Source: a virus. Taken from it: DNA of 32,800 nt. Each line of letters starts with the position of its first letter. Within the stretch, counting starts at the first letter, position 1. Positions 12,704 to 32,800 of this stretch are shown one piece after another. The notes beneath the pieces are model-generated. The model had not been told where the DNA came from and did no database searches. It was given only the letters and a program-made list of their open reading frames with translations. The DNA lies in IMG/VR virus record IMGVR_UViG_3300047373_000707, positions 1-32,800 of that record; one strand, 5' to 3'. The translations under genes were made by a program, and so were the position numbers.

Positions 12704-14326
12704 TTATTTCTTTTTTCTCCAAGAATCTTTTAATGGCAAAACCATGTTCCATACACCTTTTGACTCTTTGTTATAATATCCATTTCGCTCAAACTGAACG
12801 GTGTATCCTTCTTTTTCTTCTGAAGTAGATATTTCAGTAAAAGCTTTAACTTCTTGTTTAGATTCTTTATTAAATTCATTTAAAAAATCTTCTGTAGGTT
12901 CTTCAACAGAAAAAAGTCTGTCATAAACATTAACATTTATAGGAATGTTATTGTCAGCATTTACCCAATGTAATGTGCCTTTTATTTTTCTGCCATCATC
13001 AGACCATCCACCTCTTGTTTCAGGGTCGTATGTACATAACAGCTCTATAATTTTACCATCATTATCTTTAACTACCTCATTACAAGTAACATAGTATCCA
13101 TATTTAAATCTAACCTCCTTGTTGTTACTAAGTCTAAAGAATTTTTTTGGAGCATTCTCCATAAAATCTCCTCTCTCTATATAAAGATGTTTTCCAAAAT
13201 TAACCATTCTATAGTTTTCTTCTTCGGATTCTGGATTTAGTTTAGCTGGTAACATTTCTTCACCACCTTCCCAGTTTGTTATTGTTACTTTTAAAGGGTC
13301 AAACACGGTCATTCTTCTGTTGGCATCCTTATTTAAAACTTCTTTTATACAAGATTCAAACAAAGAAGAATCAATTAAACTTTCCCTTCTTGATATTCCA
13401 ATTTTTTCACAAAACAATTTAATTGCTTTAACAGGTATTCCTCTCCTTCTCAATCCAGACAAAGTTGGTAGTCTAGGGTCATCCCAACCGTCTACAATAC
13501 CCTCTTCAACTAATTGTTTTATTATTCTCTTACTCATAACTGTATGAGACAAGTTAAGTCTAGAGAACTCTATTTGTCTTGGCTTTATATCTCTGTCTAT
13601 TAATTCATTTATAATCCAGTCATAAAGAGGCCTATGTGGCTCAAACTCTAAAGTACATACAGAGTGAGTTATATTTTCTATAGCATCAGATAAACAATGA
13701 GCGAAGTCATACATAGGATATATACACCATTTATCTCCAGTGTTATGGTGATGCTCTTTTTTTACACGATATATAATAGGGTCTCTCATATGAACATTAG
13801 AAGATGACATATCTATCTTAGCACGTAAAGTCATTTTACCATCTTCAACATCTCCGTTTCTCATAGATTCAAATAAAGATAAATTTTCCTCTACGCTTAA
13901 ATCTCTATTTGGACTTGGTTTACCTGGGCTGTCTGTTGTACCCATATACTCTTTTATTTCTTCAGAGTTTAAAGTACATACATAAGCCTTTCCCTTATTA
14001 ATTAGTTCTAAAGCAAAATTATATATCTTATCAAAATAATTAGAAGCATAATATATATTAGCTGGCTTTACACCTAACCATTCAATATCTTTTTTCATAG
14101 ACTCTACAAACTCCATAGATTCAGTAGAGGGGTTGGTATCATCAAATCTTAAATTACATTTACCATTGTATTTTTCTGCTAATCCGAAATTTAGAAATAT
14201 AGATTTAGCATGTCCAAGATGCAACGAATTTCCAGATGGTTCTGGAGGAAATCTGGTGACAATATCTTTCACATTTCCTTCTTCAATTATTTCTTCTATG
14301 AAATTTTTACCTTCTTTATTATCCAT
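12704..14326 (-). CDS. glnS: Glutaminyl-tRNA synthetase
   Basis: Class I enzyme that joins glutamine to tRNA-Gln. At 540 residues it is full length (E. coli GlnRS about 554). The nucleotide-binding signature is RFPPEPSGNSLHLGHAKS with HLGH at residues 36-39, and the second signature is TVMSKR, the KMSKS equivalent. The segment CNLRFDDTNPSTE and the C-terminal beta-barrel region are also typical. I see no frameshift or missing catalytic motif, so it is probably active. It is encoded near a phage tRNA-Gln (15060-15130) on the same strand, but separated from it by a terminator, DHFR and tRNA-Leu. This enzyme is uncommon among phage-encoded synthetases. Confidence 0.95.
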   Translation of the reverse strand: MDNKEGKNFIEEIIEEGNVKDIVTRFPPEPSGNSLHLGHAKSIFLNFGLAEKYNGKCNLRFDDTNPSTESMEFVESMKKDIEWLGVKPANIYYASNYFDKIYNFALELINKGKAYVCTLNSEEIKEYMGTTDSPGKPSPNRDLSVEENLSLFESMRNGDVEDGKMTLRAKIDMSSSNVHMRDPIIYRVKKEHHHNTGDKWCIYPMYDFAHCLSDAIENITHSVCTLEFEPHRPLYDWIINELIDRDIKPRQIEFSRLNLSHTVMSKRIIKQLVEEGIVDGWDDPRLPTLSGLRRRGIPVKAIKLFCEKIGISRRESLIDSSLFESCIKEVLNKDANRRMTVFDPLKVTITNWEGGEEMLPAKLNPESEEENYRMVNFGKHLYIERGDFMENAPKKFFRLSNNKEVRFKYGYYVTCNEVVKDNDGKIIELLCTYDPETRGGWSDDGRKIKGTLHWVNADNNIPINVNVYDRLFSVEEPTEDFLNEFNKESKQEVKAFTEISTSEEKEGYTVQFERNGYYNKESKGVWNMVLPLKDSWRKKK

Positions 14327-14534: not shown

Positions 14535-14539
14535 ATTAG

Positions 14540-14623
14540 TACTCGGGGCGGGAATCGAACCCGCACTCCCAAATGGGAACAAGATTTTAAGTCTTGCGTG
14601 TCTACCTATTCCACCACCCGAGC
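14540..14623 (-). tRNA. tRNA-Leu (anticodon UAA)
   Basis: 84 nt. Acceptor GCTCGGG/CCCGAGT (first pair G-U), anticodon stem CAAGA/TCTTG with loop CTTAAAA (anticodon TAA), long variable arm CCCATTTGGG, T-arm GCGGG-TTCGATT-CCCGC. The 3' CCA is not encoded. It reads UUA, a leading Leu codon in this AT-rich genome. The 5' end directly abuts the TAA stop codon of the DHFR gene. Confidence 0.95.
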
Positions 14624-15010
14624 TTAATCTGTATCAAATTTATAAATAATTTTCTTACCAGAAAAATTTTTCAGCTCTGGCATTTTTGTATCACCTATAG
14701 TTTCATCATTTATTTCAGAGATATGAAGTTCATCACATAAATGAATTGTAGATTCGTATATTCTTTTCCCCCCTATAATCCAATCAGGCTTTTTTTCCAA
14801 AGCCTGTTCAAGGGTATTATATCCTTTTCCAACAACAATTACCTCTCTTCCTTTTAGGGTAGGCATAGATTCATAAGTTGTTCTACCTACAAGAATCTTA
14901 CATCCCATTGTTAAGTTTTTAAAATGCTTTAAATCCTCTTTACAATTCCAAGGAAGTTTATTATCCTTTCCAATGTATCCTACTTTATTTGTTGCAATTA
15001 TTGCTTTCAT
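14624..15010 (-). CDS. folA: Dihydrofolate reductase, short form
   Basis: Reduces dihydrofolate to tetrahydrofolate with NADPH, supporting phage nucleotide synthesis. Starts MKAIIATNKVGYIGKDNKLPW, with the LPW loop and an acidic residue in KEDLKHFK, followed by GRTTYESMP and WIIGGKRIYE, all conserved in DHFR. At 128 residues it is shorter than typical bacterial enzymes (about 159 or more): the C-terminal beta region is trimmed, yet the catalytic and cofactor-binding segments are present. I chose the ATG at 15010; a longer form would begin in an upstream hairpin. The stop codon touches the 5' end of tRNA-Leu. A terminator hairpin lies just before the start, so expression may depend on read-through. 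Confidence 0.9.
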   Translation of the reverse strand: MKAIIATNKVGYIGKDNKLPWNCKEDLKHFKNLTMGCKILVGRTTYESMPTLKGREVIVVGKGYNTLEQALEKKPDWIIGGKRIYESTIHLCDELHISEINDETIGDTKMPELKNFSGKKIIYKFDTD

Positions 15011-15014
15011 GTTT

Positions 15015-15058
15015 TTAAAAATAAAGAAACACAATCAAATTAATTGACTGTGTTTCTT
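15015..15058 (-). terminator. Terminator-like hairpin between tRNA-Gln and DHFR
   Basis: On the minus strand AAGAAACACAGTCAA (15058-15044) pairs with TTGATTGTGTTTCTT (15038-15024): 15 bp including one G-U, 5-nt loop. It is followed by TATTTTT. It starts 2 nt after the tRNA-Gln and ends 13 nt before the DHFR ATG, so it could terminate the tRNA transcript or control DHFR translation. Confidence 0.75.
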
Positions 15059-15059
15059 G

Positions 15060-15130
15060 TTGGCCTACTAGGACTCGAACCTAGAATGGAGGTACCAAAA
15101 ACCTCAGTGTTGCCATTACACCATAGACCA
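15060..15130 (-). tRNA. tRNA-Gln (anticodon UUG)
   Basis: 71 nt. Acceptor TGGTCTA/TAGGCCA with the weak U1-A72 pair typical of tRNA-Gln; anticodon stem GAGGT/ACCTC with loop TTTTGGT (anticodon TTG); T-arm CTAGG-TTCGAGT-CCTAG. Discriminator is A73 and position 37 is G, unlike E. coli tRNA-Gln (G73, A37). CCA is not encoded. The phage also encodes GlnRS 0.7 kb downstream. Confidence 0.95.
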
Positions 15131-15143
15131 ATAACTTATTTAG

Positions 15144-15215
15144 TAGCCCGTAAGAGAATCGAACTCTTGTTACCAGGATGAAAACCTGGCGTCCTAACCA
15201 CTAGACGAACGGGCC
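15144..15215 (-). tRNA. tRNA-Glu (anticodon UUC)
   Basis: 72 nt. Acceptor GGCCCGT/ACGGGCT (first pair G-U), D-arm with AGTGGTTAGGAC, anticodon stem CCAGG/CCTGG with loop TTTTCAT (anticodon TTC), T-arm AAGAG-TTCGATT-CTCTT. CCA is not encoded. It reads GAA, which is extremely common in the acidic scaffold and other structural genes. Confidence 0.95.
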
Positions 15216-15262
15216 ATTTTCTGATATAAATATATTGATTTTTATTAAAAAGTAAATTATTA

Positions 15263-15589
15263 TTAGCAATACCGAACAGCACGAACTCTAATCGTGTAGT
15301 TCTTACTGCTGCCGTTCTGGGTGCCGTTTGAGAAGTACTGAGTCCAAACGCCGAAGTTATTGTACTCGGTAGAACTCCAATAGTAGTTATTAACAAAGCC
15401 GCCAATTTCTTCCTTTTTTTTATAAAGCATATTCAATTCATCTTTTGTTGGCAATCTCCATTCTAATCCTAGTTTTTTACAAGCAATTTTTGCGTCATGC
15501 CAATTCATACGACCTAAATCACGAGACACTTCCAATCCGTTAACTGATTTTTTACCTTCTAGTAATATGTGTTTTGAATTAACATTCAT
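15263..15589 (-). CDS. Lectin-fold (DUF1566/Lcl-type) protein, candidate DGR variable protein 1
   Basis: A 108-residue stand-alone domain with no signal peptide. Its pattern GLEVSRDLGRMNWHDAK, EWRLPTKDEL, YWSSTEYN and VRAVR matches the DUF1566/Lcl C-terminal family, a C-type-lectin-like fold. In DGR targets of this type the C-terminus is the variable region. Here residues 69-108 fit that: fixed W-SST, W, F, NG, Q, K and VRAVR positions with non-matching residues in between when compared with the paralogue. Codons change abruptly: the first two thirds use A/T-ended codons, while the tail is dominated by NNC codons (TTC, GGC, TAC, AAC, ACC, AGC), as expected if AAC codons of a template were mutated at their A residues. 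It lies 15 nt after its paralogue. No template repeat or reverse transcriptase is seen in the window. Confidence 0.75.
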   Translation of the reverse strand: MNVNSKHILLEGKKSVNGLEVSRDLGRMNWHDAKIACKKLGLEWRLPTKDELNMLYKKKEEIGGFVNNYYWSSTEYNNFGVWTQYFSNGTQNGSSKNYTIRVRAVRYC

Positions 15590-15604
15590 TAAACTAAGTC
15601 ATTA

Positions 15605-15931
15605 TTAGCAATGCCGAACAGCACGCACATTATATTTGTAACTCTTGTGGAAGTAACCTTGAAGACCGTTAGTGAAAATGTGGAACCAAGCAAGAGTTTT
15701 ATCATAATCTGTAGAGCTCCAATGAATATTGTTACCAAGGTCACCAATTTCTTCCTTGTTTTCAAAAAACATATTCAATTCCTTTATTGTTGGCAATCTC
15801 CATCCTTGCCCGAGGTTTTTAGAAGTCTCAATTGCTTCATACCAAGTCATATGTCCTAGATTATGAGACACTTCCAATCCGTTAACTGATTTTTTGCCTT
15901 CTAATAGTATATGTTTTGACTTAACACTCAT
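15605..15931 (-). CDS. Lectin-fold (DUF1566/Lcl-type) protein, candidate DGR variable protein 2
   Basis: A 108-residue paralogue of the next gene, colinear without gaps and strongly similar in the first 65 residues (LLEGKKSVNGLEVS, WRLPT, EL-M, NKEEIG). The C-terminal 40 residues differ at about half the positions: HWSSTDYDKTLAW versus YWSSTEYNNFGVW, and later LQGYFHKSYKYN versus TQNGSSKNYTIR. Both end VRAVR-x-C, encoded by the identical CGTGCTGTTCGG then ATTGC. Variable positions again often carry NNC codons (TTC, CAC, TAC). Silent C/T differences from the paralogue show the two were not copied from one single template recently. The ATG overlaps the stop of the PcfJ-like gene (TAATG). Confidence 0.75.
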   Translation of the reverse strand: MSVKSKHILLEGKKSVNGLEVSHNLGHMTWYEAIETSKNLGQGWRLPTIKELNMFFENKEEIGDLGNNIHWSSTDYDKTLAWFHIFTNGLQGYFHKSYKYNVRAVRHC

Positions 15932-16590
15932 TAAACTAAGTCATTATTACTTTTATTAAACTTAAGTTTATATTTTGTAAGATATTCTATAACGAATTCT
16001 CTACTTTCTTTTGAAGCGGGGTAATTAGAATGTGCTTTTAGCTGGTTGAATACCAAATCATTATCAACAACTGCAAAACCTAAAGTCAACCTTTCCCAGG
16101 ATTTTTTATTAAAAAACTTAAATCCTACATATTCTCCTTCTGCAATTATATATCTATAAGTAGCTATACAATGATTCATATACTTACCTTCCCAATCTAA
16201 TTGTTTTATATCTTGTATTAATTCGATTTTATAATTTTCTTCATCACAAGATAGATGACTGTAATTATCTACTCGTTGTTGAAACTTCTGCTCCAGATAA
16301 AAATCTGAATCTGCCTTAAAATTTCTTACTAACTCAAGATGATATCCAAGAAGATTCTTTTTTTCTACAGAAAGAAGAGTGTCTGTATCTTGATTCATTA
16401 TTTTAAGAGTTCTATATGTGTCTATATAATACTCAACTAACGTTTCGTGATTTATTTTTCTTTCAAAAATATTTTCAATATGCTTCGCTGGTAAAATTTC
16501 ACCGTCTCCAAAATTATTATTTAAATAATCAAAAAATATTTCGACTTCTATTTTAGAAGACTTTTGTTCTAATAAATTTTTATCAATCAT
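15931..16590 (-). CDS. PcfJ-like protein
   Basis: A 219-residue protein. The segment LDWEGKYMNHCIATYRYIIA followed by EGEYVGF (residues about 135-160) matches the conserved core of PcfJ-like proteins (L-x-x-E-G-x-x-M-x-H/N-C), named after a gene of plasmid pCF10 and widespread on plasmids and phages. The biochemical role of the family is not known to me. The N-terminal 120 residues are helical. It overlaps the upstream ATPase gene by 4 nt (ATGA) and the downstream lectin gene by 1 nt (TAATG), so all three should be translated together. The association with hypervariable-type lectins is unusual. Confidence 0.65.
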   Translation of the reverse strand: MIDKNLLEQKSSKIEVEIFFDYLNNNFGDGEILPAKHIENIFERKINHETLVEYYIDTYRTLKIMNQDTDTLLSVEKKNLLGYHLELVRNFKADSDFYLEQKFQQRVDNYSHLSCDEENYKIELIQDIKQLDWEGKYMNHCIATYRYIIAEGEYVGFKFFNKKSWERLTLGFAVVDNDLVFNQLKAHSNYPASKESREFVIEYLTKYKLKFNKSNNDLV

Positions 16591-19491: not shown

Positions 19492-20271
19492 TTATATTAA
19501 CTCTATTGAAAACCCTATATTCTTTAGAATGGAAGAGTCTTTTCGACTATAATAATGCTTACCTTTTATTAGTTCTCCATTATTACATAGTTCATCGAAA
19601 AGTTCTTTTCTACAATTTTTTAAAACCGTAACGTATTTTTTCTTTATTGACACAATTCCCATATTAACCATTCTCATTAATTGGTTATATCCTGTCATTT
19701 TTGTTTTATTCAACATTTCACCAATAGTTTCACAGCATATAAAAGTATCAAAATTTATCCTTTCACTCGCAATTGACCGTTTTAAGACTTCTGGACTAAT
19801 CCCGCTTTTTCTTAATTTGTTAATTTGGTCTCTTTTCCGCATAAGCGAGTTGGATTTACCTTTGATAGTATATCTCTGTTTATTGAGATTGTTAATTAAA
19901 ACTTTAGAATACAATCTAGTTTTAACATCTTGTACACTTTCAGAATCACGGAACATTATTGAACCACATCTATTGTTATGGTTCACTCCGTAAATTTTTG
20001 AAATCTTCTCTATAGAAGAAAATGTAATATTATTACCCCCAGATTTATTTTTTACAGTATTGATAATATTCATATTTTCCATTTTTTTTAAATGAAATTT
20101 TATAGAATTTGGAGAAACCCCTATTAATCTAGAAGCTTTTCTTACTGAAAAATTATAAATAGTTGAATTAGAGTATAGATATTTTAGTTTTATAAAATAA
20201 GAAAACGTCAAAATCTCTTCGGACTTTATTAGCCTTTTAATTAAGCTGTGTGTTATTCTTACTTTTTTCAA
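19492..20271 (-). CDS. Helix-turn-helix DNA-binding protein
   Basis: A 259-residue, strongly basic protein. The segment FSVRKASRLIGVSPNSIKFH and LKKMENMNII (about residues 41-71) reads as a winged helix-turn-helix. The C-terminal half has a second possible DNA-binding part (FICCETIGEMLNKTKMTGYN). This suggests a transcription or replication regulator. The start must be the TTG at 20271: an in-frame stop lies 15 nt further upstream and no ATG follows for about 65 codons. It sits alone on the minus strand between neck and tail genes, so it may be a recently inserted gene, in the manner of morons or homing elements, though no endonuclease motif is visible. Confidence 0.65.
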   Translation of the reverse strand: MKKVRITHSLIKRLIKSEEILTFSYFIKLKYLYSNSTIYNFSVRKASRLIGVSPNSIKFHLKKMENMNIINTVKNKSGGNNITFSSIEKISKIYGVNHNNRCGSIMFRDSESVQDVKTRLYSKVLINNLNKQRYTIKGKSNSLMRKRDQINKLRKSGISPEVLKRSIASERINFDTFICCETIGEMLNKTKMTGYNQLMRMVNMGIVSIKKKYVTVLKNCRKELFDELCNNGELIKGKHYYSRKDSSILKNIGFSIELI

Positions 20272-24931: not shown

Positions 24932-27900
24932 GTGGCTGGACAATATTTTTTTAAAATAGATGATAAGTTTTTACCTCTAAGTGGAGGTACGGTAAGCGGT
25001 AACACATATGTTAGTGCCAATTTATCTGCTGATACTTTAAATTTAGTTAATATACCAAATAATGACGACTCCTTAACTCAAATATTAGCAAGAAATTCTG
25101 TAAATGGAGATGTTGAATATAGAGATGTACAATCTATAATAAGTGCAGCTACTTCTCAAGACACTTATGTAACTGGAGGTACTTATAATGATGTTTCTAA
25201 TGAATTATTATTAGAAAGAAATGATGCCGTAAATATAATAATAAGTGGATTTTCATCAGGAGCCCAATTCGGAACAACATATTTTGTCGCACCAGAAGGT
25301 GATGACTTAACAGGTGAATATGGAAACATATCAAAACCTTTTAAAACAATTACTGGTGCTAGAAATCAATTATTGATTGACTCCTTATCTGGACAAACTC
25401 TAATATATGTATTCCCAGGAACTTATGATGAAACTGAATTACAGTACCCTAATGGTAAAATGTATTTATCGCCTGGCTCTTTAATTAAACCTTCTGCTAA
25501 AATTAATGGTGTTGGCGCTGGAATGACCGCTGTAAATCAAGGTACTAAAACTTTCACGTTTAATGGCAATTGGGCCAGTTACTTAATAATAGGTAAGAGA
25601 TTTGAAGTTGTTGGAGGTTCTAATGGTGGTATTTACACAATTATTTCCTCTACAGATGTAGGAGGAACTACAGAGGTTGTGGTTTTAGAAACAATACCTT
25701 CATCGTCTGTTGGCGGTACATTAAGAACTAATGAAGTTATTTTTCTATTAGGTGATACACCTCTTAACGCACCGTCTGGTTCTGCTTCTAATAAATTTGA
25801 TTTATATGGTGAGGGTGATATAGATATCGTTAAATCATTAGATGATGATTGGTCAAAAGGCATTGTAACCTCTTTCGGTAGTTCAGAATTTTACGGAGAA
25901 GCCGTGAGTTGGAGGATGGAAAAGGGTGTTATTATGGGGTCTTATGACGATTCTAAAATGACATTTAATGGTTCTAGTTTAGAGTTATATGGTGGAAGTG
26001 GTTATGTTACAACTGTTAGAGACTCTAGTGATACAACATTTAATTTTGATAGAATATTATGTAATGGAAGTTACACCTTTTACGTTAGATATGGCTCAAA
26101 CCCTACATTTAATGGTAGTTGTGTTGTAACATCTAACGTCATAAAGTCAACAGATTCTTCACAAACAATTGGGATACAAAGAATGGGCCCAGGTGGTAGG
26201 GTTGTAATTAATTCACCTATTGTTGAAAGTGAAAGTTTTACTTTAAATGCAGCACAAAATTCAGGTGGTGAATTTATTTTAAATGGTAATATAGTGGCAA
26301 CTACACCTAGCGGTAGTGGTATTGTAGCGGGACTAGATTCTGGTAACGAAGCTTCTTTTACTATAAACGGTAATATTACCACAGATAGTAATCGTGCATT
26401 TTGGGGTGTTGGCTCTGTTAACAGTAATTGGTATTTGAACGGTAATATTGAATCTCTTTCGGGTAGTACTGACCCTATTTTAGATTTAGGGTCTGGTTCT
26501 GGTAGTATTAATTTAAATGGTAGTGTTAAAAACACTGATGGTGGTGTAACTTTAGACGGTATCTCAACAGGCGGTGTTTCTGTTATTGTTGAAAATTTAG
26601 ATGTTGTAGCTGATAATGAAACTATTACATCTTCATCACCACAAACAGTAGAAATTTTACATTCCCTAAGTATAAATAATTCTTTAGGTTCTAATATAAC
26701 AACAACTGGTTTATATAATTTTACAGGAACTACAAATGTTGGTGATTTAGTAATTTATAATACACCTACAAACGATGATTCACTGACTCAGATATTAGGT
26801 AGAAACTCTACTACAGGAGATGTGGAGTATAGAGATGTGCAGTCTATAATAAGTGCAGCAACTTCTCAAGACACTTATGTAACAGGTAGTACGTTAAGTG
26901 GTGATACTTTAGTTTTAAGCAGAAATGATGGTGTTGAGTTAACAACTGATTTAAGTTCCATTATACCAGATTCAGATTTGGGTCAGATATTATTTGTTTC
27001 AACAACAGGGGACGATTCTACAGCATCCAAAGGAGATATACACAAACCATATAGAAATATATACGCTGCCAAAAGTGGTGCCACCATAGGAGATACTATT
27101 TATGTATTTCCAGGTACGTGGACTTACGACAATACAAATTCAGTAGGTAATCCTTATAATGGGAATATAGAAACCCAAGTTAATTTGTGGAAAGATGGTA
27201 TTAATTATTACTTCTCTCCAGGCTCTAAGGTGGTTTTTAGCAACCAAACAGTTACTGGTGATAGAATGTATTTATTTTCACCAATGAGTTCTGGTTATGA
27301 AACATGTAACGTATATGGGGAGTTAGAGTGGGAAGGTAGTTCTATAGGGGCTAATAGTTCAAATGGACATACACACATTTTTTATATAGATGAGAATCAA
27401 CCTTTAAATGAGGCATATAGTTGTAATATGGAAATAAAATCAGCCATATCCATATCTTCACAACCTATAAATGGTGGTAGTGTTCACACTGGTTCTACAA
27501 CTACTTATTTCAACTTAAAAGCGGATACTGTAGCTTGTGATTATTCACAAGGACAATCTGGAAGTGGTGGTGGAATACACCTTTGGGGAGGTGGTAAACA
27601 GTATAATAATGTTGAGGTGAATGAGATTAGGAGTAATTTTTTCACTTTATACTTAAGAACTGATGATGGCCAAGATGGATTTAATTTAAATCTTACATCT
27701 AATAGACTTTATTCTAAAGGAACTACTGTAATTTTAAATAGAGGTTTAGTTGGTGATATAAATATAAACTTTAAGGAAGCTTTTATTACTAACGCTTTAT
27801 TACAGTCACAAAATAACACAGTTGGTACCACCGTAATAAATGGTACAATAATAGATAATGTGGGTACCACAACTTACCCTATTTTTAACTTAACCTCCAG

Positions 27901-28537
27901 CAACCAATGTAAAACCATATTTAATGGAATTGTAAAACCAAAAGTTAATTCAGGCAATGGTCGTAGGTTGATACAAATATCACAACCCAACAACGATATG
28001 ATTTTCAAGGGTGATGTTTTTTATGATAGTACCACGTCAACTACCTCAAATATGTTTAATCTATTAGCAGATAGTGAATTAGTCTTTAATGGTAATGTGT
28101 TGGGTACTTTTAGTGGTAAAATTGGTAATGTTAGAAATGGTAAATTAATAATTAAGGATAGTCATTTTGAATCTAATACTAGTGGTAATGTTTTGTTTGA
28201 TAACGATGTAACATCATCAACTGGTATAACTTCTATAAGAAATAGCACTTTTTTATTAAACAACTCTACAACAGATTTGCATGATGGTCAGTATTTAAAC
28301 ACTTATATTTTAAATTCAAACATTAAGAACTATGGTTCTTCAGATATATTTACTAACAGCACTAATACAGGGTTATTGCAAATTCAAAATAGTAGTTTAG
28401 TATGTGTTTCGGGAGAAACTATTAATGTTTCTGGTAATGCACCATTAATTTTAAATAACACTACAACAAACACAACGTTTTTTGCAAACAATATAAGTGG
28501 TACAATAACAGAAATAACAGAATTAGACATAGAATAG
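24932..28537 (+). CDS. Long tail fibre or tailspike with duplicated beta-helix domains
   Basis: A 1201-residue protein starting at a GTG that follows the previous stop by 1 nt. The N-terminus reads FLPLSGGTVSGNT, a common fibre-anchor phrase. A linker module (EYRDVQSIISAATSQ) follows, then a pectate-lyase-like parallel beta-helix beginning near residue 112 (FVAPEGDD..ISKPFKTI..IYVFPGTYDE). The linker recurs near residue 630, and a second beta-helix begins near residue 682 (FVSTTGDD..IHKPYRNI..IYVFPGTWTY). The rest is Asn/Gly/Thr-rich repeat sequence typical of stacked beta-helix coils. It probably binds or depolymerises a host surface glycan. No catalytic residues can be assigned by eye. Confidence 0.82.
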   Translation: MAGQYFFKIDDKFLPLSGGTVSGNTYVSANLSADTLNLVNIPNNDDSLTQILARNSVNGDVEYRDVQSIISAATSQDTYVTGGTYNDVSNELLLERNDAVNIIISGFSSGAQFGTTYFVAPEGDDLTGEYGNISKPFKTITGARNQLLIDSLSGQTLIYVFPGTYDETELQYPNGKMYLSPGSLIKPSAKINGVGAGMTAVNQGTKTFTFNGNWASYLIIGKRFEVVGGSNGGIYTIISSTDVGGTTEVVVLETIPSSSVGGTLRTNEVIFLLGDTPLNAPSGSASNKFDLYGEGDIDIVKSLDDDWSKGIVTSFGSSEFYGEAVSWRMEKGVIMGSYDDSKMTFNGSSLELYGGSGYVTTVRDSSDTTFNFDRILCNGSYTFYVRYGSNPTFNGSCVVTSNVIKSTDSSQTIGIQRMGPGGRVVINSPIVESESFTLNAAQNSGGEFILNGNIVATTPSGSGIVAGLDSGNEASFTINGNITTDSNRAFWGVGSVNSNWYLNGNIESLSGSTDPILDLGSGSGSINLNGSVKNTDGGVTLDGISTGGVSVIVENLDVVADNETITSSSPQTVEILHSLSINNSLGSNITTTGLYNFTGTTNVGDLVIYNTPTNDDSLTQILGRNSTTGDVEYRDVQSIISAATSQDTYVTGSTLSGDTLVLSRNDGVELTTDLSSIIPDSDLGQILFVSTTGDDSTASKGDIHKPYRNIYAAKSGATIGDTIYVFPGTWTYDNTNSVGNPYNGNIETQVNLWKDGINYYFSPGSKVVFSNQTVTGDRMYLFSPMSSGYETCNVYGELEWEGSSIGANSSNGHTHIFYIDENQPLNEAYSCNMEIKSAISISSQPINGGSVHTGSTTTYFNLKADTVACDYSQGQSGSGGGIHLWGGGKQYNNVEVNEIRSNFFTLYLRTDDGQDGFNLNLTSNRLYSKGTTVILNRGLVGDININFKEAFITNALLQSQNNTVGTTVINGTIIDNVGTTTYPIFNLTSSNQCKTIFNGIVKPKVNSGNGRRLIQISQPNNDMIFKGDVFYDSTTSTTSNMFNLLADSELVFNGNVLGTFSGKIGNVRNGKLIIKDSHFESNTSGNVLFDNDVTSSTGITSIRNSTFLLNNSTTDLHDGQYLNTYILNSNIKNYGSSDIFTNSTNTGLLQIQNSSLVCVSGETINVSGNAPLILNNTTTNTTFFANNISGTITEITELDIE
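25061..25176 (+). repeat. Fibre linker module, copy 1
   Basis: Encodes DSLTQILARNS..GDVEYRDV..IISAATSQDTYVTG. Four DNA-level copies of this roughly 116-bp module occur in the two fibre genes (25061, 26771, 28624, 29070). Confidence 0.8.
26771..26886 (+). repeat. Fibre linker module, copy 2
   Basis: Second copy in the same gene, encoding DSLTQILGRNSTTGDVEYRD and the shared IISAATSQDTYVTG, immediately before the second beta-helix. Confidence 0.8.
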
Positions 28538-28538
28538 A

Positions 28539-31500
28539 ATGAGCACTAAACAAAATATATATGGTTCTTTATTTGTTAGTAATAACATAAGTGGTGATAC
28601 ACTATCCTTATCCACACTAAACAATAATGATTCTTTAACTGAAATGTTAGCCAGAAACAGTTCTGGCCTAATTGAGTATAGAGATGTACAATCTATAATA
28701 AGTGCAGCCACTTCTCAAGATACATTTATTACTGGGTTTACATATAATGATTCAAATACTTTTGTAATATCCGATAACAGCGGCTCTACATTTAGTGCCA
28801 CAATTAATAATGTAACAGGATTAACTAGTGTTGGGGATATAAACATCATTGGAAATCTTGTTGTTACTGGGGGCACAGGGAATGTAATTACTAAACAAAT
28901 TTATTTAGAAGGTAATTTAGGTTTAGATTGGGACTTTCTTTCTAGTTCTGTAGTATTAGGAAATAATGTTAATGGAACAATTGTAAACGGCACAAGTTTA
29001 ACAGTTAATAGTGACACATTAGTTAATGGAAGCATAACAGGAAATAGTTTAAATTTATCTTCAACAACTAATGATAATTCCCTAACACAAATTTTAGGAA
29101 GAAATTCTACAACTGGAGATGTTGAATATAGAGATGTATCTTCTATTATTGGAGCAGCTTCAGCAGATACATATGTTGTTTCTGGTAACGCGGATGCAGC
29201 CACGTCACAGTTAAGCTTTACTTACAATACAGGAGGAACTTTTACCGTTGCAAATTCTGCAGCACTGTTTTCAGATAATGACATTAACGTTACAGGAGGT
29301 ACCTATAATCCAAGTACTGGCTGTGTTACATTTGCAACAAATAGTGGGACTACATTTGATGTTTGTGGTTTTGTTACGGGAATAACTGACAGCTATACAA
29401 CTGGTTCTACATTGGTGGGAGAATCAATACAATTCGATAATAACATATTAGGCTCAAACTATTATAGTGTTAGTTTGACACCAGCATTAAGTGGAAAAAC
29501 TGATGTTTCAACTTTTGAATCTTATACCGCAAATACTAAAGTAGAAATAGATAGTAAATTAAATATATCAACGTTTAATAATTATACCGCCAACACAACA
29601 GATTTTTTTGTTACTGGCGGAACTTATTCTTCTGGTACAGCAACATTTGAAAACAATAATGGTGACTCATTTAATGTAACGGGATTTACAGAACCATTTA
29701 CAGGAAATACATCTGGAGACTGTATTGATGAATTGTGGGTTAAAAACATAAGTGGATGCACAAGTGAAGATTTACATATTGGAGTAGAATCAGGAAAAGA
29801 TATTTATTTTGATTCGACAGGAACAACTGACTCTCCATCATTATATATAAATTCAAGAGGACAAATAGGTGTAGGTACTAATACTCCTTTTAGTTGGGCA
29901 ACTACAGATGGTACAGGTATTGAAATTCACAATGACAGTATAAACAATCAGATACCATTTGCGGTCACAGAAACTGGGACTAGAAGGTTTTTTATAGAGA
30001 CAGATTTTGCAACCACATCTAATCCTGTACACATTAAAGGTAGTAGTAGCACTAATTTAATGACATTTTATACATCCTCCTCTTCTTCTAGAGTTGGTAT
30101 CGGAACAACTATACCAGAAGGTTCTTTTCAGATTGCTAAATCAGGAACGGTTTCAGACCAAACTAAATATCCTTCAGAAACAAATGTTGTAATAAACAAT
30201 ACTAGTAATGGTTATTCTGGTTCAACTGGAGCTGCTAACAGTGCTGCATTTAGATTCGACCATGAAACTTCGGAAATACCAGGCGGACTTATCACATCTA
30301 AGCGTAGAGATACTTGGGGAAGTGGCGAAAAAAGTACTTCTTTTGAAATATGGAATAATTCTGGAGAAACTCTAATTAAGAGATTTGAAATTTTACCTGA
30401 TGGAAAAACGACAATAATAGGCTCTTTAAATATAGACACAATATTAAGCGGCACACCAGTCATTAATTTGGGTATAGATTCTAGCGGAAATGTTGTTACA
30501 GGAATTACTGACACGGTAGATATAACAAGAGTTCAACCTGGTACTAACATAAATACAGGAGGAACGGCAAACAATCCTATTGTTAATCTTGAAGACGACA
30601 TTTTATTAACTTCTGTTTCTGCAACAAATGTAAGTGGTGGAACTATATACTCTGGAAGCACTGACCTTTCTGATATATTTTTAACAACAGCAGATGGAAA
30701 CGATATTACAAGAGTTCAAGGAGGAACAAACATAACAACTGGTGGGACCGCAAACAATCCTACGGTTAATCTTGATTCTGATATTTCATTAAATTCTATT
30801 TCTGCAAATAATTTAAGTGGTGGAACTATATATTCTGGCTCAACAGATTTATATAATATTATAGAAAGTTTAGACACCTATATTACTGGAGGCACATATG
30901 ACGAGTCTACAGATAGCATTACTTTAGGCAGAAATGACGCTGGAAAAGTGCTTATAACTGGTATAACTGACACTTTTTATTGGACAACTGGTTCAACGGG
31001 AAATTTTTCATTAAAGGCAATAAATGACAGCGGACTAGACGCCACAGGAAATTATGCAGTAGCAGAAGGTGGTGGAACTATTGCAAGTGGAAACTATTCT
31101 CATGCAGAAGGTTTTGAAACAACAGCATCAGGTCCAGAAGCTCATTCGGAAGGCTACCAAACAACGGCAAGTGGAGAAGATTCACACGCTGAAAATTTAT
31201 TTACAATTTCTAGTGGAGACTATTCTCATGCTGAAGGCTGGAGTACAACGGCTAGTGGAGAAGATTCACATTCAGAAGGTTTTGGCAATGTGGCAAGCGG
31301 TGCAGATTCACATGCAGAAGGGCTAAATAATACGGCTAGCAATACAGCTTCTCATGCTCAAGGCTTTAATACTACATCAACAGGTACCGCTTCTCATTCA
31401 GAAGGTTTTGACACACTATCAAGTGCTGACGCATCTCATTCAGAAGGCTATAGTTCAACAGCTAGCGGATTAGCTTCACATGCGGAAGGTTTTGAAACAA

Positions 31501-32800
31501 CATCAAGTGGTTCATTTTCTCACTCAGGAGGCTTTGGCTCAATTGCATCTGGTGACACTTCTTTTGTGCATTCAACAAACTCTTTAGCAAGTGGTTCTAG
31601 GAGTGCAGTTTTAGGTGGACAAAACATCACAGGAACAACTGATGATACGGTATATGTTCCTTATTTAAACATAAACAATTTAGCATCAGGCACATCCATT
31701 AATAATATAGGCTTAGATTCTAGCGGAAATGTAGTTTTGGGAGTTGATGGAAACGACATTACAAGAGTTCAAGGTGGAACAAATGTTTCAACTGGAGGAA
31801 CTGCAAACAATCCGATTATTAATCTTGATTCCGACATTTCATTAACTTCTGTTTCTGCAATTAATTTAAGCGGTGGAACTATATACTCTGGAAGCACTGA
31901 CCTTTCTGATATATTTTTAACAACAGCAGACGGTAATGATATTACAAGAGTTCAAAATGGAATAAATACATTTACTGGTGGAACTGAAAACAATCCAACA
32001 ATTAATGTTACAGCTCTCACAATAGACAATATAACTGTTTCTGGAGATTCTAGTTTTGATTCAGCTTCCGCAAATACAATTTATTCTGGAAGTACCGACC
32101 TTTCTGATATTTTCGCAACAAAAGCAGAAGACTCATTTAGCACTGGAGGTACTGTTACTCAAAAAGCTACAAGTGCTAGCACTGAAGTGGTTATACAAAT
32201 AGATGGAAATAATGATTTTTCATCTTATAACGTTACAGGTCTGACAGACACTTTTGTTAGTGACTTTACTTATAGCGCAAACACATTTACTATAAATCAA
32301 AATGACGGTAATAGTATTGACGCAGAAATTGACACTATAGATTTATCTTCTGTTCTGAGCGCAGTAACTTTTGATATAGGAACTACAGGAAGTATATCTG
32401 CTACAACTTTTTACTCTGGAAGTACTGACCTTTCTGAAATATTCTTGACTGAAGCTGATGGAAACGATATAACAAGAGTTCAACCTGGCACCAACATTAA
32501 TACAGGTGGAACTGCAAACAATCCGATTGTAAATCTTGATGATGACATCTTTTTAAATTCCGTTTCTGGAAATACTTTAAGTGGTGGAACTATATATTCT
32601 GGTTCAACTGATTTATACGATATTTTCTTAACAGAAAATGACGGAAACGACATTACAAGAGTTCAAGGCGGAACAAATATTTCAACTGGTGGAACTGCAA
32701 ACAATCCGATTGTAAATCTTGATGATGACATCTTTTTAAATTCCGTTTCTGGAAATACACTAAGCGGTGGGACTATATATTCTGGTTCAACTGATTTATA
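28539..32800 (+). CDS. Giant tail fibre, 3' end outside window
   Basis: Open from the ATG at 28539, 1 nt after the previous stop, to the last base, more than 1420 residues. It begins with two copies of the linker module shared with the first fibre. Mid-protein segments contain IGVGTNTP and RVGIGTTIPEGSFQI, phrases usual in phage fibre repeats. From about residue 838 to 1025 there are about 13 YadA-like head repeats (SHAEG..TTASG pattern with 14-residue spacing), forming a left-handed beta-roll in trimeric adhesins. Three pairs of a 61-residue unit (DITRVQ..TGGTANNP..LSGGTIYSGSTDL) flank them. It is Ser/Thr/Asn/Gly-rich throughout. It is probably the main long fibre or receptor-binding protein; its tip lies beyond the window. 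Confidence 0.85.
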   Translation, partial: MSTKQNIYGSLFVSNNISGDTLSLSTLNNNDSLTEMLARNSSGLIEYRDVQSIISAATSQDTFITGFTYNDSNTFVISDNSGSTFSATINNVTGLTSVGDINIIGNLVVTGGTGNVITKQIYLEGNLGLDWDFLSSSVVLGNNVNGTIVNGTSLTVNSDTLVNGSITGNSLNLSSTTNDNSLTQILGRNSTTGDVEYRDVSSIIGAASADTYVVSGNADAATSQLSFTYNTGGTFTVANSAALFSDNDINVTGGTYNPSTGCVTFATNSGTTFDVCGFVTGITDSYTTGSTLVGESIQFDNNILGSNYYSVSLTPALSGKTDVSTFESYTANTKVEIDSKLNISTFNNYTANTTDFFVTGGTYSSGTATFENNNGDSFNVTGFTEPFTGNTSGDCIDELWVKNISGCTSEDLHIGVESGKDIYFDSTGTTDSPSLYINSRGQIGVGTNTPFSWATTDGTGIEIHNDSINNQIPFAVTETGTRRFFIETDFATTSNPVHIKGSSSTNLMTFYTSSSSSRVGIGTTIPEGSFQIAKSGTVSDQTKYPSETNVVINNTSNGYSGSTGAANSAAFRFDHETSEIPGGLITSKRRDTWGSGEKSTSFEIWNNSGETLIKRFEILPDGKTTIIGSLNIDTILSGTPVINLGIDSSGNVVTGITDTVDITRVQPGTNINTGGTANNPIVNLEDDILLTSVSATNVSGGTIYSGSTDLSDIFLTTADGNDITRVQGGTNITTGGTANNPTVNLDSDISLNSISANNLSGGTIYSGSTDLYNIIESLDTYITGGTYDESTDSITLGRNDAGKVLITGITDTFYWTTGSTGNFSLKAINDSGLDATGNYAVAEGGGTIASGNYSHAEGFETTASGPEAHSEGYQTTASGEDSHAENLFTISSGDYSHAEGWSTTASGEDSHSEGFGNVASGADSHAEGLNNTASNTASHAQGFNTTSTGTASHSEGFDTLSSADASHSEGYSSTASGLASHAEGFETTSSGSFSHSGGFGSIASGDTSFVHSTNSLASGSRSAVLGGQNITGTTDDTVYVPYLNINNLASGTSINNIGLDSSGNVVLGVDGNDITRVQGGTNVSTGGTANNPIINLDSDISLTSVSAINLSGGTIYSGSTDLSDIFLTTADGNDITRVQNGINTFTGGTENNPTINVTALTIDNITVSGDSSFDSASANTIYSGSTDLSDIFATKAEDSFSTGGTVTQKATSASTEVVIQIDGNNDFSSYNVTGLTDTFVSDFTYSANTFTINQNDGNSIDAEIDTIDLSSVLSAVTFDIGTTGSISATTFYSGSTDLSEIFLTEADGNDITRVQPGTNINTGGTANNPIVNLDDDIFLNSVSGNTLSGGTIYSGSTDLYDIFLTENDGNDITRVQGGTNISTGGTANNPIVNLDDDIFLNSVSGNTLSGGTIYSGSTDL
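28624..28735 (+). repeat. Fibre linker module, copy 3
   Basis: Third copy, in the N-terminal part of the giant fibre gene, encoding SLTEMLARNSSGLIEYRDV and IISAATSQDTFITG. Confidence 0.75.
29070..29185 (+). repeat. Fibre linker module, copy 4
   Basis: Fourth and most diverged copy: NSLTQILGRNSTTGDVEYRD followed by IIGAASADTYVVSG. Confidence 0.75.
30525..32800 (+). repeat. Three pairs of 183-bp repeat units in the giant fibre gene
   Basis: The string ACAAGAGTTCAA marks the unit start at 30525 and 30708, at 31761 and 31944, and at 32472 and 32655. Each pair is exactly 183 bp (61 codons) apart. Copies encode DITRVQ-x-G-T-N..TGGTANNP..LSGGTIYSGSTDL..DIFLT; the last pair is nearly identical in DNA. 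Confidence 0.85.
31050..31620 (+). repeat. YadA-like head repeat array
   Basis: About 13 degenerate units of roughly 42 bp (14 residues) with the core SHAEG or SHSEG followed by xxTTASG, ending at SLASGSRSAVLGG. In-frame in the giant fibre. Confidence 0.9.

Follow-up and report, generated by a model that had tools for sequence, protein, structure and literature searches.

Tandem lectin-fold genes of a T4-like phage belong to a family whose tails appear to derive from DGR templates on bacterial chromosomes

The window, by which we mean the whole 32,800-nucleotide stretch of DNA analysed here, comprises all of IMG/VR record IMGVR_UViG_3300047373_000707. It is a fragment of a T4-like phage with a GC content of 31.5%, containing genes for a gp23-type major capsid protein, a head protease and a tail sheath; no near DNA relatives were found among GenBank phages. 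On the strand opposite to the structural genes lie two tandem open reading frames of interest, whose features are as follows.

15263 to 15589, minus strand: Lcl_C copy 1 (W_u1), an open reading frame of 108 amino acids (PF07603, 6e-12) with a C-type-lectin fold
15605 to 15931, minus strand: Lcl_C copy 2 (W_u2), an open reading frame of 108 amino acids (PF07603, 4e-10), first in transcription order
15272 to 15403, minus strand: tail of copy 1, 132 nt, resembling a variable region (VR); it matches the bacterial template (TR) L223, and the TR search also picks this place
15614 to 15745, minus strand: VR-equivalent region of copy 2, 132 nt, with no adenine bias
15272 to 15286, minus strand: 3′ end of copy 1, GTTCGTGCTGTTCGG, identical to the 3′ end of TR L223; candidate initiation region
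15614 to 15628, minus strand: 3′ end of copy 2, GTGCGTGCTGTTCGG
15269 to 15937, strand not applicable: segment missing from the colinear phage G462 (empty site), in which the flanks at 15143–15269 and 15937–16536 adjoin

Both products are Lcl_C (DUF1566) proteins with a C-type-lectin fold, as judged by Pfam (PF07603), a structural model and a fold search. The AlphaFold2 model of copy 1 (pLDDT 88.6) has as its closest solved fold the C-terminal domain of Legionella pneumophila Lcl (8q4e; E 6e-8, 35% identity, query TM-score 0.76), with animal C-type lectins next in the search. From this fold, the phage Lcl_C proteins are predicted to bind ligands. Their genes lie outside the tail module, a position that gives no indication of a tail-adhesin role. 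DUF1566 has been reported as the commonest target domain of DGRs (PMC6642488).

The Lcl_C genes adjoin tRNA genes in two genome contexts, one shared by the window and its relative G003 and the other by the relatives G001, G002 and G004. In the window, three tRNA genes (14539–14623, 15059–15130 and 15143–15215, minus strand) are present, tRNA-Gln(TTG), tRNA-Glu(TTC) and tRNA-Leu(TAA), together with a dihydrofolate reductase gene (14624–15034) and a gene for a 540-residue class I Glu/Gln-type aminoacyl-tRNA synthetase, read as GlnRS (12704–14326, minus strand). Among the plus-strand structural genes sits a minus-strand gene (19492–20271) with weak winged-helix and NUMOD1 matches, whose product is perhaps related to homing endonucleases. 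Two long plus-strand frames (24932–28537, with no Pfam match, and 28539–32798, which runs off the record) share NSxTGDVEYRDVQSIISAATSQDTYVTG, the second also containing TGGTANNPxVNLD; they are likely to encode tail-fibre-like proteins.

A sequence-only reading of the window had proposed that the two genes are DGR targets, on the grounds of a conserved head, a diverged tail and an abrupt change in codon usage. These descriptions are accurate. The two proteins align without gaps and are identical at 42/65 positions in residues 1–65 and at 20/43 in residues 66–108, a contrast that is modest at the protein level. Codons ending in C rise from 5/65 in the head of copy 1 to 18/44 in its tail; the corresponding counts for copy 2 are 6/65 and 11/44. 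The shared 3′ sequence CGTGCTGTTCGG is present in both genes; the next six bases are TATTGC (copy 1) or CATTGC (copy 2), so that one base precedes the ATTGC previously noted. Silent differences between the tails, raised in that reading as a point against a recent common template, were also confirmed: the pair differs at 15, 16 and 22 first, second and third codon positions of the tail, which indicates that the copies did not come recently from one template. Likewise, neither an RVT_1 domain nor a copy of the template was detected in the window, in which the best chance match to a template disagrees at 10 non-A positions over 60 nt.

The window copies were compared with templates from bacterial genomes. 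The nearest template to copy 1, L223, differs from it at 17/47 A positions and 11/85 non-A positions, a weak adenine bias (p=0.002), and the 3′ end that had been put forward as an initiation region, GTTCGTGCTGTTCGG, is also the 3′ end of this TR. Copy 2 fits no TR; its best comparisons give 21 changes at A and 27–29 at non-A positions (p about 0.3). A purpose-built query of 240 genomes of the G356 family returned no template that beats L223 for copy 1, although a nearer one may exist. By themselves, therefore, the window pair do not prove DGR activity. It is the relatives rather than this pair that decide the link to DGRs.

Five IMG/VR phage contigs (G001–G005) carry one to five tandem copies of the same Lcl_C gene, each encoding a single domain of 107–108 amino acids, with an array period of 344 bp in G001 and G002. 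Array-bearing phages include those of IMG/VR records 3300020185_004330, _000312 and _004010. G003 is about 90% identical to the window and colinear with it; at the corresponding locus, the first of its copies is freshly derived from a template. By contrast, both Lcl_C genes are missing from G462 (capsid protein 93% identical), in which the flanks are joined. In the tail, variation among the copies falls mainly on first and second codon positions. In ten copies (G003u2 and G004u1 omitted), 21/37 first, 24/37 second and 8/37 third codon positions of the tail vary, compared with 21, 14 and 24 of 60 in the head. The 174-nt heads of G001u1 and G002u2 are identical, whereas their 132-nt tails differ at 24 positions.

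Several further observations concern Lcl_C genes in viral records. The same Lcl_C tail occurs in two phage contigs of a single metagenome (L021:3007-3321 and L023:9684-9998), on heads that differ at 16/180 nt, reflecting either phage-to-phage tail swapping or an assembly effect. In the array at L022:9958-11316, no ATG lies upstream of the conserved head in copies beyond the first, which makes it uncertain whether the array copies are expressed; the likeliest start is a TTG within the repeated 38-bp spacer. A 327-kb record, IMG/VR 3300044644_001125 (L042, L064, L066, L072 and L075), contains dozens of short Lcl_C-type frames in several clusters (WRLPT...VRDLKDD and similar) and no RT match.

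A degenerate template pattern was used to query GTDB genomes and returned ten stretches, of which three on Flavobacteriales contigs (L114, L116 and L121) are nearly letter-for-letter the template inferred from the phages. An RT, a bAvd-type gene and a target gene of the Lcl_C type accompany each of them. For L114 and L121, RVT_1 and bAvd were verified with Pfam; the RT frame of L116 is broken. The DGR of L114 was also located on a chromosome (L318) with ribD, oxyR, recF and lumazine synthase as neighbours, read by eye from translations. Complete bacterial DGRs thus provide fitting templates (L114/L318, L121 and, with its broken RT frame, L116) for the relatives and not for the window copies. 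Compared with their own templates, the bacterial targets of L114 and L121 have 24 and 23 changes at A, respectively, and none elsewhere. An initial template guess from the phage consensus, with AAT at codon 21, was discarded, as the real TRs have AAA. This is the sole A-ended codon of the TR, and its third base alone varies freely in phage tails, an exception that the AAA codon explains.

The phage tails were compared with a composite TR, namely that of L116 with codon 14 set to the AAC of L114 and L121, chosen after seeing the copies. The A/non-A changes were 23/0, 19/6 and 14/0 for G001u1 to G001u3; 23/3, 27/0, 19/2, 28/1 and 23/2 for G002u1 to G002u5 (one inserted codon having been removed from the last before comparison); 23/0 for G003u1; and 22/1 for G005u1. 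G004u1 was compared with the L114 TR and gave 26/2, including the distinct 3′ end of L114. Pooled over these 11 copies, changes affect 247/562 template A positions and 17/890 others; the p-value of 1e-96 is nominal, given the relatedness of the copies and the post hoc choice of composite, and single TRs show the same picture. Within AAY template codons, positions 1, 2 and 3 account for 116, 102 and 5 changes, and per-position change frequencies correlate between phage and host tails (r=0.72). Three TR alleles are represented in the phages: CGCGCTGTTCGG, CGTTCGGTCAGG (G004u1, as in L114) and the CGTGCTGTTCGG form. The phage heads resemble host target genes at 25–43% of positions in the 120 nt beside the VR.

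A second feature shared by the relatives and bacterial targets lies downstream. Downstream of many VRs in Flavobacteriales stand GCTTTTTAAC and copies of ATTTAWC; the matching TRs are followed by GGTTTTAAACAA. The ATTTAWC copies recur every 9–10 bases or so 3′ of the VRs in L114, L116, L121, L226, L229, L230 and L233 and are absent after the TRs, making this AT-rich motif a candidate target signal for Flavobacteriales DGRs. At this place, the phage copies carry GCTTCTTAACAATTTAAC or a close variant of it. The host-like flank follows 11/11 A-biased copies and 0/3 others (both window copies and G003u2), so that the copies without it are those lacking clear A-only change (p=0.003, on 14 related copies). 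An exact-pattern scan of viral contigs for the flank matched only G001, G002 and G005.

Taken together, the comparisons show a mosaic of a phage head and a tail of bacterial TR type, with adenine-only change and a common target-side flank. Matching templates were found only in bacterial chromosomes, so the phages appear to borrow the bacterium's retroelement. We consider that the Lcl_C genes of this phage family are probably DGR targets whose RT, Avd and template reside on the host chromosome, and that the window pair look like old or retired members. Neither window copy has the flank, and ordinary substitutions have accumulated in both; the rewriting of this family is found elsewhere. It is also, on balance, likely that RT-less phage targets bear the target-side signals of a host DGR, allowing a bacterial retroelement to diversify phage proteins during infection. 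The earlier proposal of targets with a remote RT and template, and with more than one template, is thus strongly upheld for the gene family, whose members include near-perfect TR products of at least three alleles, but the location of the machinery on a bacterial chromosome had not been foreseen. For the window copies, the same proposal is weakly supported, given the p=0.002 of copy 1, the unbiased copy 2 and the missing downstream element of both.

In an infected cell, RT and Avd of the bacterium would reverse-transcribe the TR RNA of the host, making errors at adenines, and the resulting cDNA could home into the phage gene by means of the GTTCG..CGG 3′ end and the downstream AT-rich element. 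The last 132 nt would be replaced while the phage-specific head is retained, and tandem duplication would multiply the targets, up to five. Homing of this kind would take place on the phage genome, in trans. There is an experimental parallel in BPP-1, for which plasmid-supplied TR, RT and Avd work on a lytically infecting phage (PMC3240598). No description of natural host-to-phage DGR action was found in a word search of the literature, most subscription journals lying outside its scope.

The template match is the one link to the host, and the machinery could instead be the phages' own, with RT, Avd and TR on an unsequenced part of the genome and the arrays serving as ordinary remote targets in the same genome. 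We regard this as unlikely. Every array-bearing record is a fragment (20–88 kb) and none is complete, which leaves room for a phage-borne copy, and phages often carry DGRs; indeed, a TR-like stretch occurs in nine other viral contigs, in most of them next to an RT frame. (These nine were rejected as templates for the family, being of another DGR type and differing from each of the present phage tails at 28 or more non-A positions.) However, about 285 kb of array-bearing phage sequence contains neither RT nor TR, and scans of 2.9 million viral contigs gave no hit to either of two TR patterns to which the bacterial TRs conform. The phage tails, moreover, mirror several bacterial TR alleles, and TR L114 lies among ordinary chromosomal genes. 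No RT was found in the window, in G001–G005 or in 23 capsid relatives; as 0/23 of the latter carry an Lcl_C gene, their missing RT says little.

Less likely still, homologous recombination could have captured bacterial VRs that were already diversified, without retrohoming on the phage. The product would look alike inside the VR, and G001u1 and G003u1 have an identical tail on different heads, showing that tails can move between genes. Yet the heads beside the VR are unlike the bacterial ones, which would limit recombination to the VR and its flank, and tails were acquired independently many times. In addition, the flank keeps a phage-specific codon, TCT, where the host has TTT, and G004u1 retains the AGG of the TR where the L114 target has CGG. 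Many Lcl_C genes occur in 240 bacterial genomes searched for phage-type arrays, and those inspected include none like the phage genes.

It is quite improbable that the window pair are plain duplicated lectin genes shaped by point mutation and selection on the binding face, with no link to DGRs. The pair on its own would fit, since third positions differ as much as first and second ones and copy 2 has no A bias, but this account does not explain why eleven relatives, including one at the orthologous locus, have fixed third bases and A-only change, or why copy 1 retains some A bias and a TR-type 3′ end. An assembly artefact in which bacterial VR reads were fused to phage contigs is more improbable again: short, similar VRs assemble badly and one metagenome is the source of three of the phage contigs, but the pattern occurs in records from three metagenomes, each tail is different with none of those compared identical to a bacterial one, and the arrays hold an exact 344-bp period with the flank intact.

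Large DGR surveys seek an RT with an adjacent VR, a limit for remote targets that has been stated (Roux et al. 2021, PMC8144416), and RT-less viral targets are invisible to such a design. If the favoured reading of host-encoded machinery is true, targeted hypermutation passes from cell to virus, phage proteins can diversify without machinery of their own, and a template match records in sequence the host lineage that supported replication of the phage. The AT-rich candidate signal for Flavobacteriales DGRs is now testable.

A possible second case involves Chlorobium phaeovibrioides, whose complete DGR (L317) has changed its own target at 23 A and 0 non-A positions. The Lcl_C tails of the viral records L053 and L056 differ from the L317 TR at 14 A/3 non-A and 19/5 positions (p 2e-5 and 7e-7, respectively). 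No RT was found in either record, and L056 encodes a phage-type DNA polymerase and helicases. These Chlorobium-type tails suggest that rewriting of phage targets by host DGRs may have arisen more than once, a case that is weaker because their flanks are without the bacterial VR-side sequence.

Among known systems, the DGR of phage BPP-1 (mtd, avd, TR and brt) likewise rewrites a phage-borne C-type-lectin-fold gene at its 3′ end, specifically at adenines, and has a target-side signal beyond the VR. In BPP-1, however, RT, Avd and TR lie beside the target, whereas none was found on the phages here, and its signal is a GC-rich hairpin, whereas the candidate flank of the phage family is AT-rich. 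The Flavobacteriales DGRs (L114, L116, L121 and L223) share the TR family, VR length, 3′ end and VR-side flank with the phage genes, but their targets are large bacterial proteins and not single domains; Legionella Lcl, the closest solved fold, is similarly a domain of a larger bacterial protein. Remote targets in Treponema denticola and Trichodesmium also have a VR distant from the RT and TR (PMC4891356, PMC8867640). There, target and machinery occupy one cellular genome, whereas here the target is on a virus.
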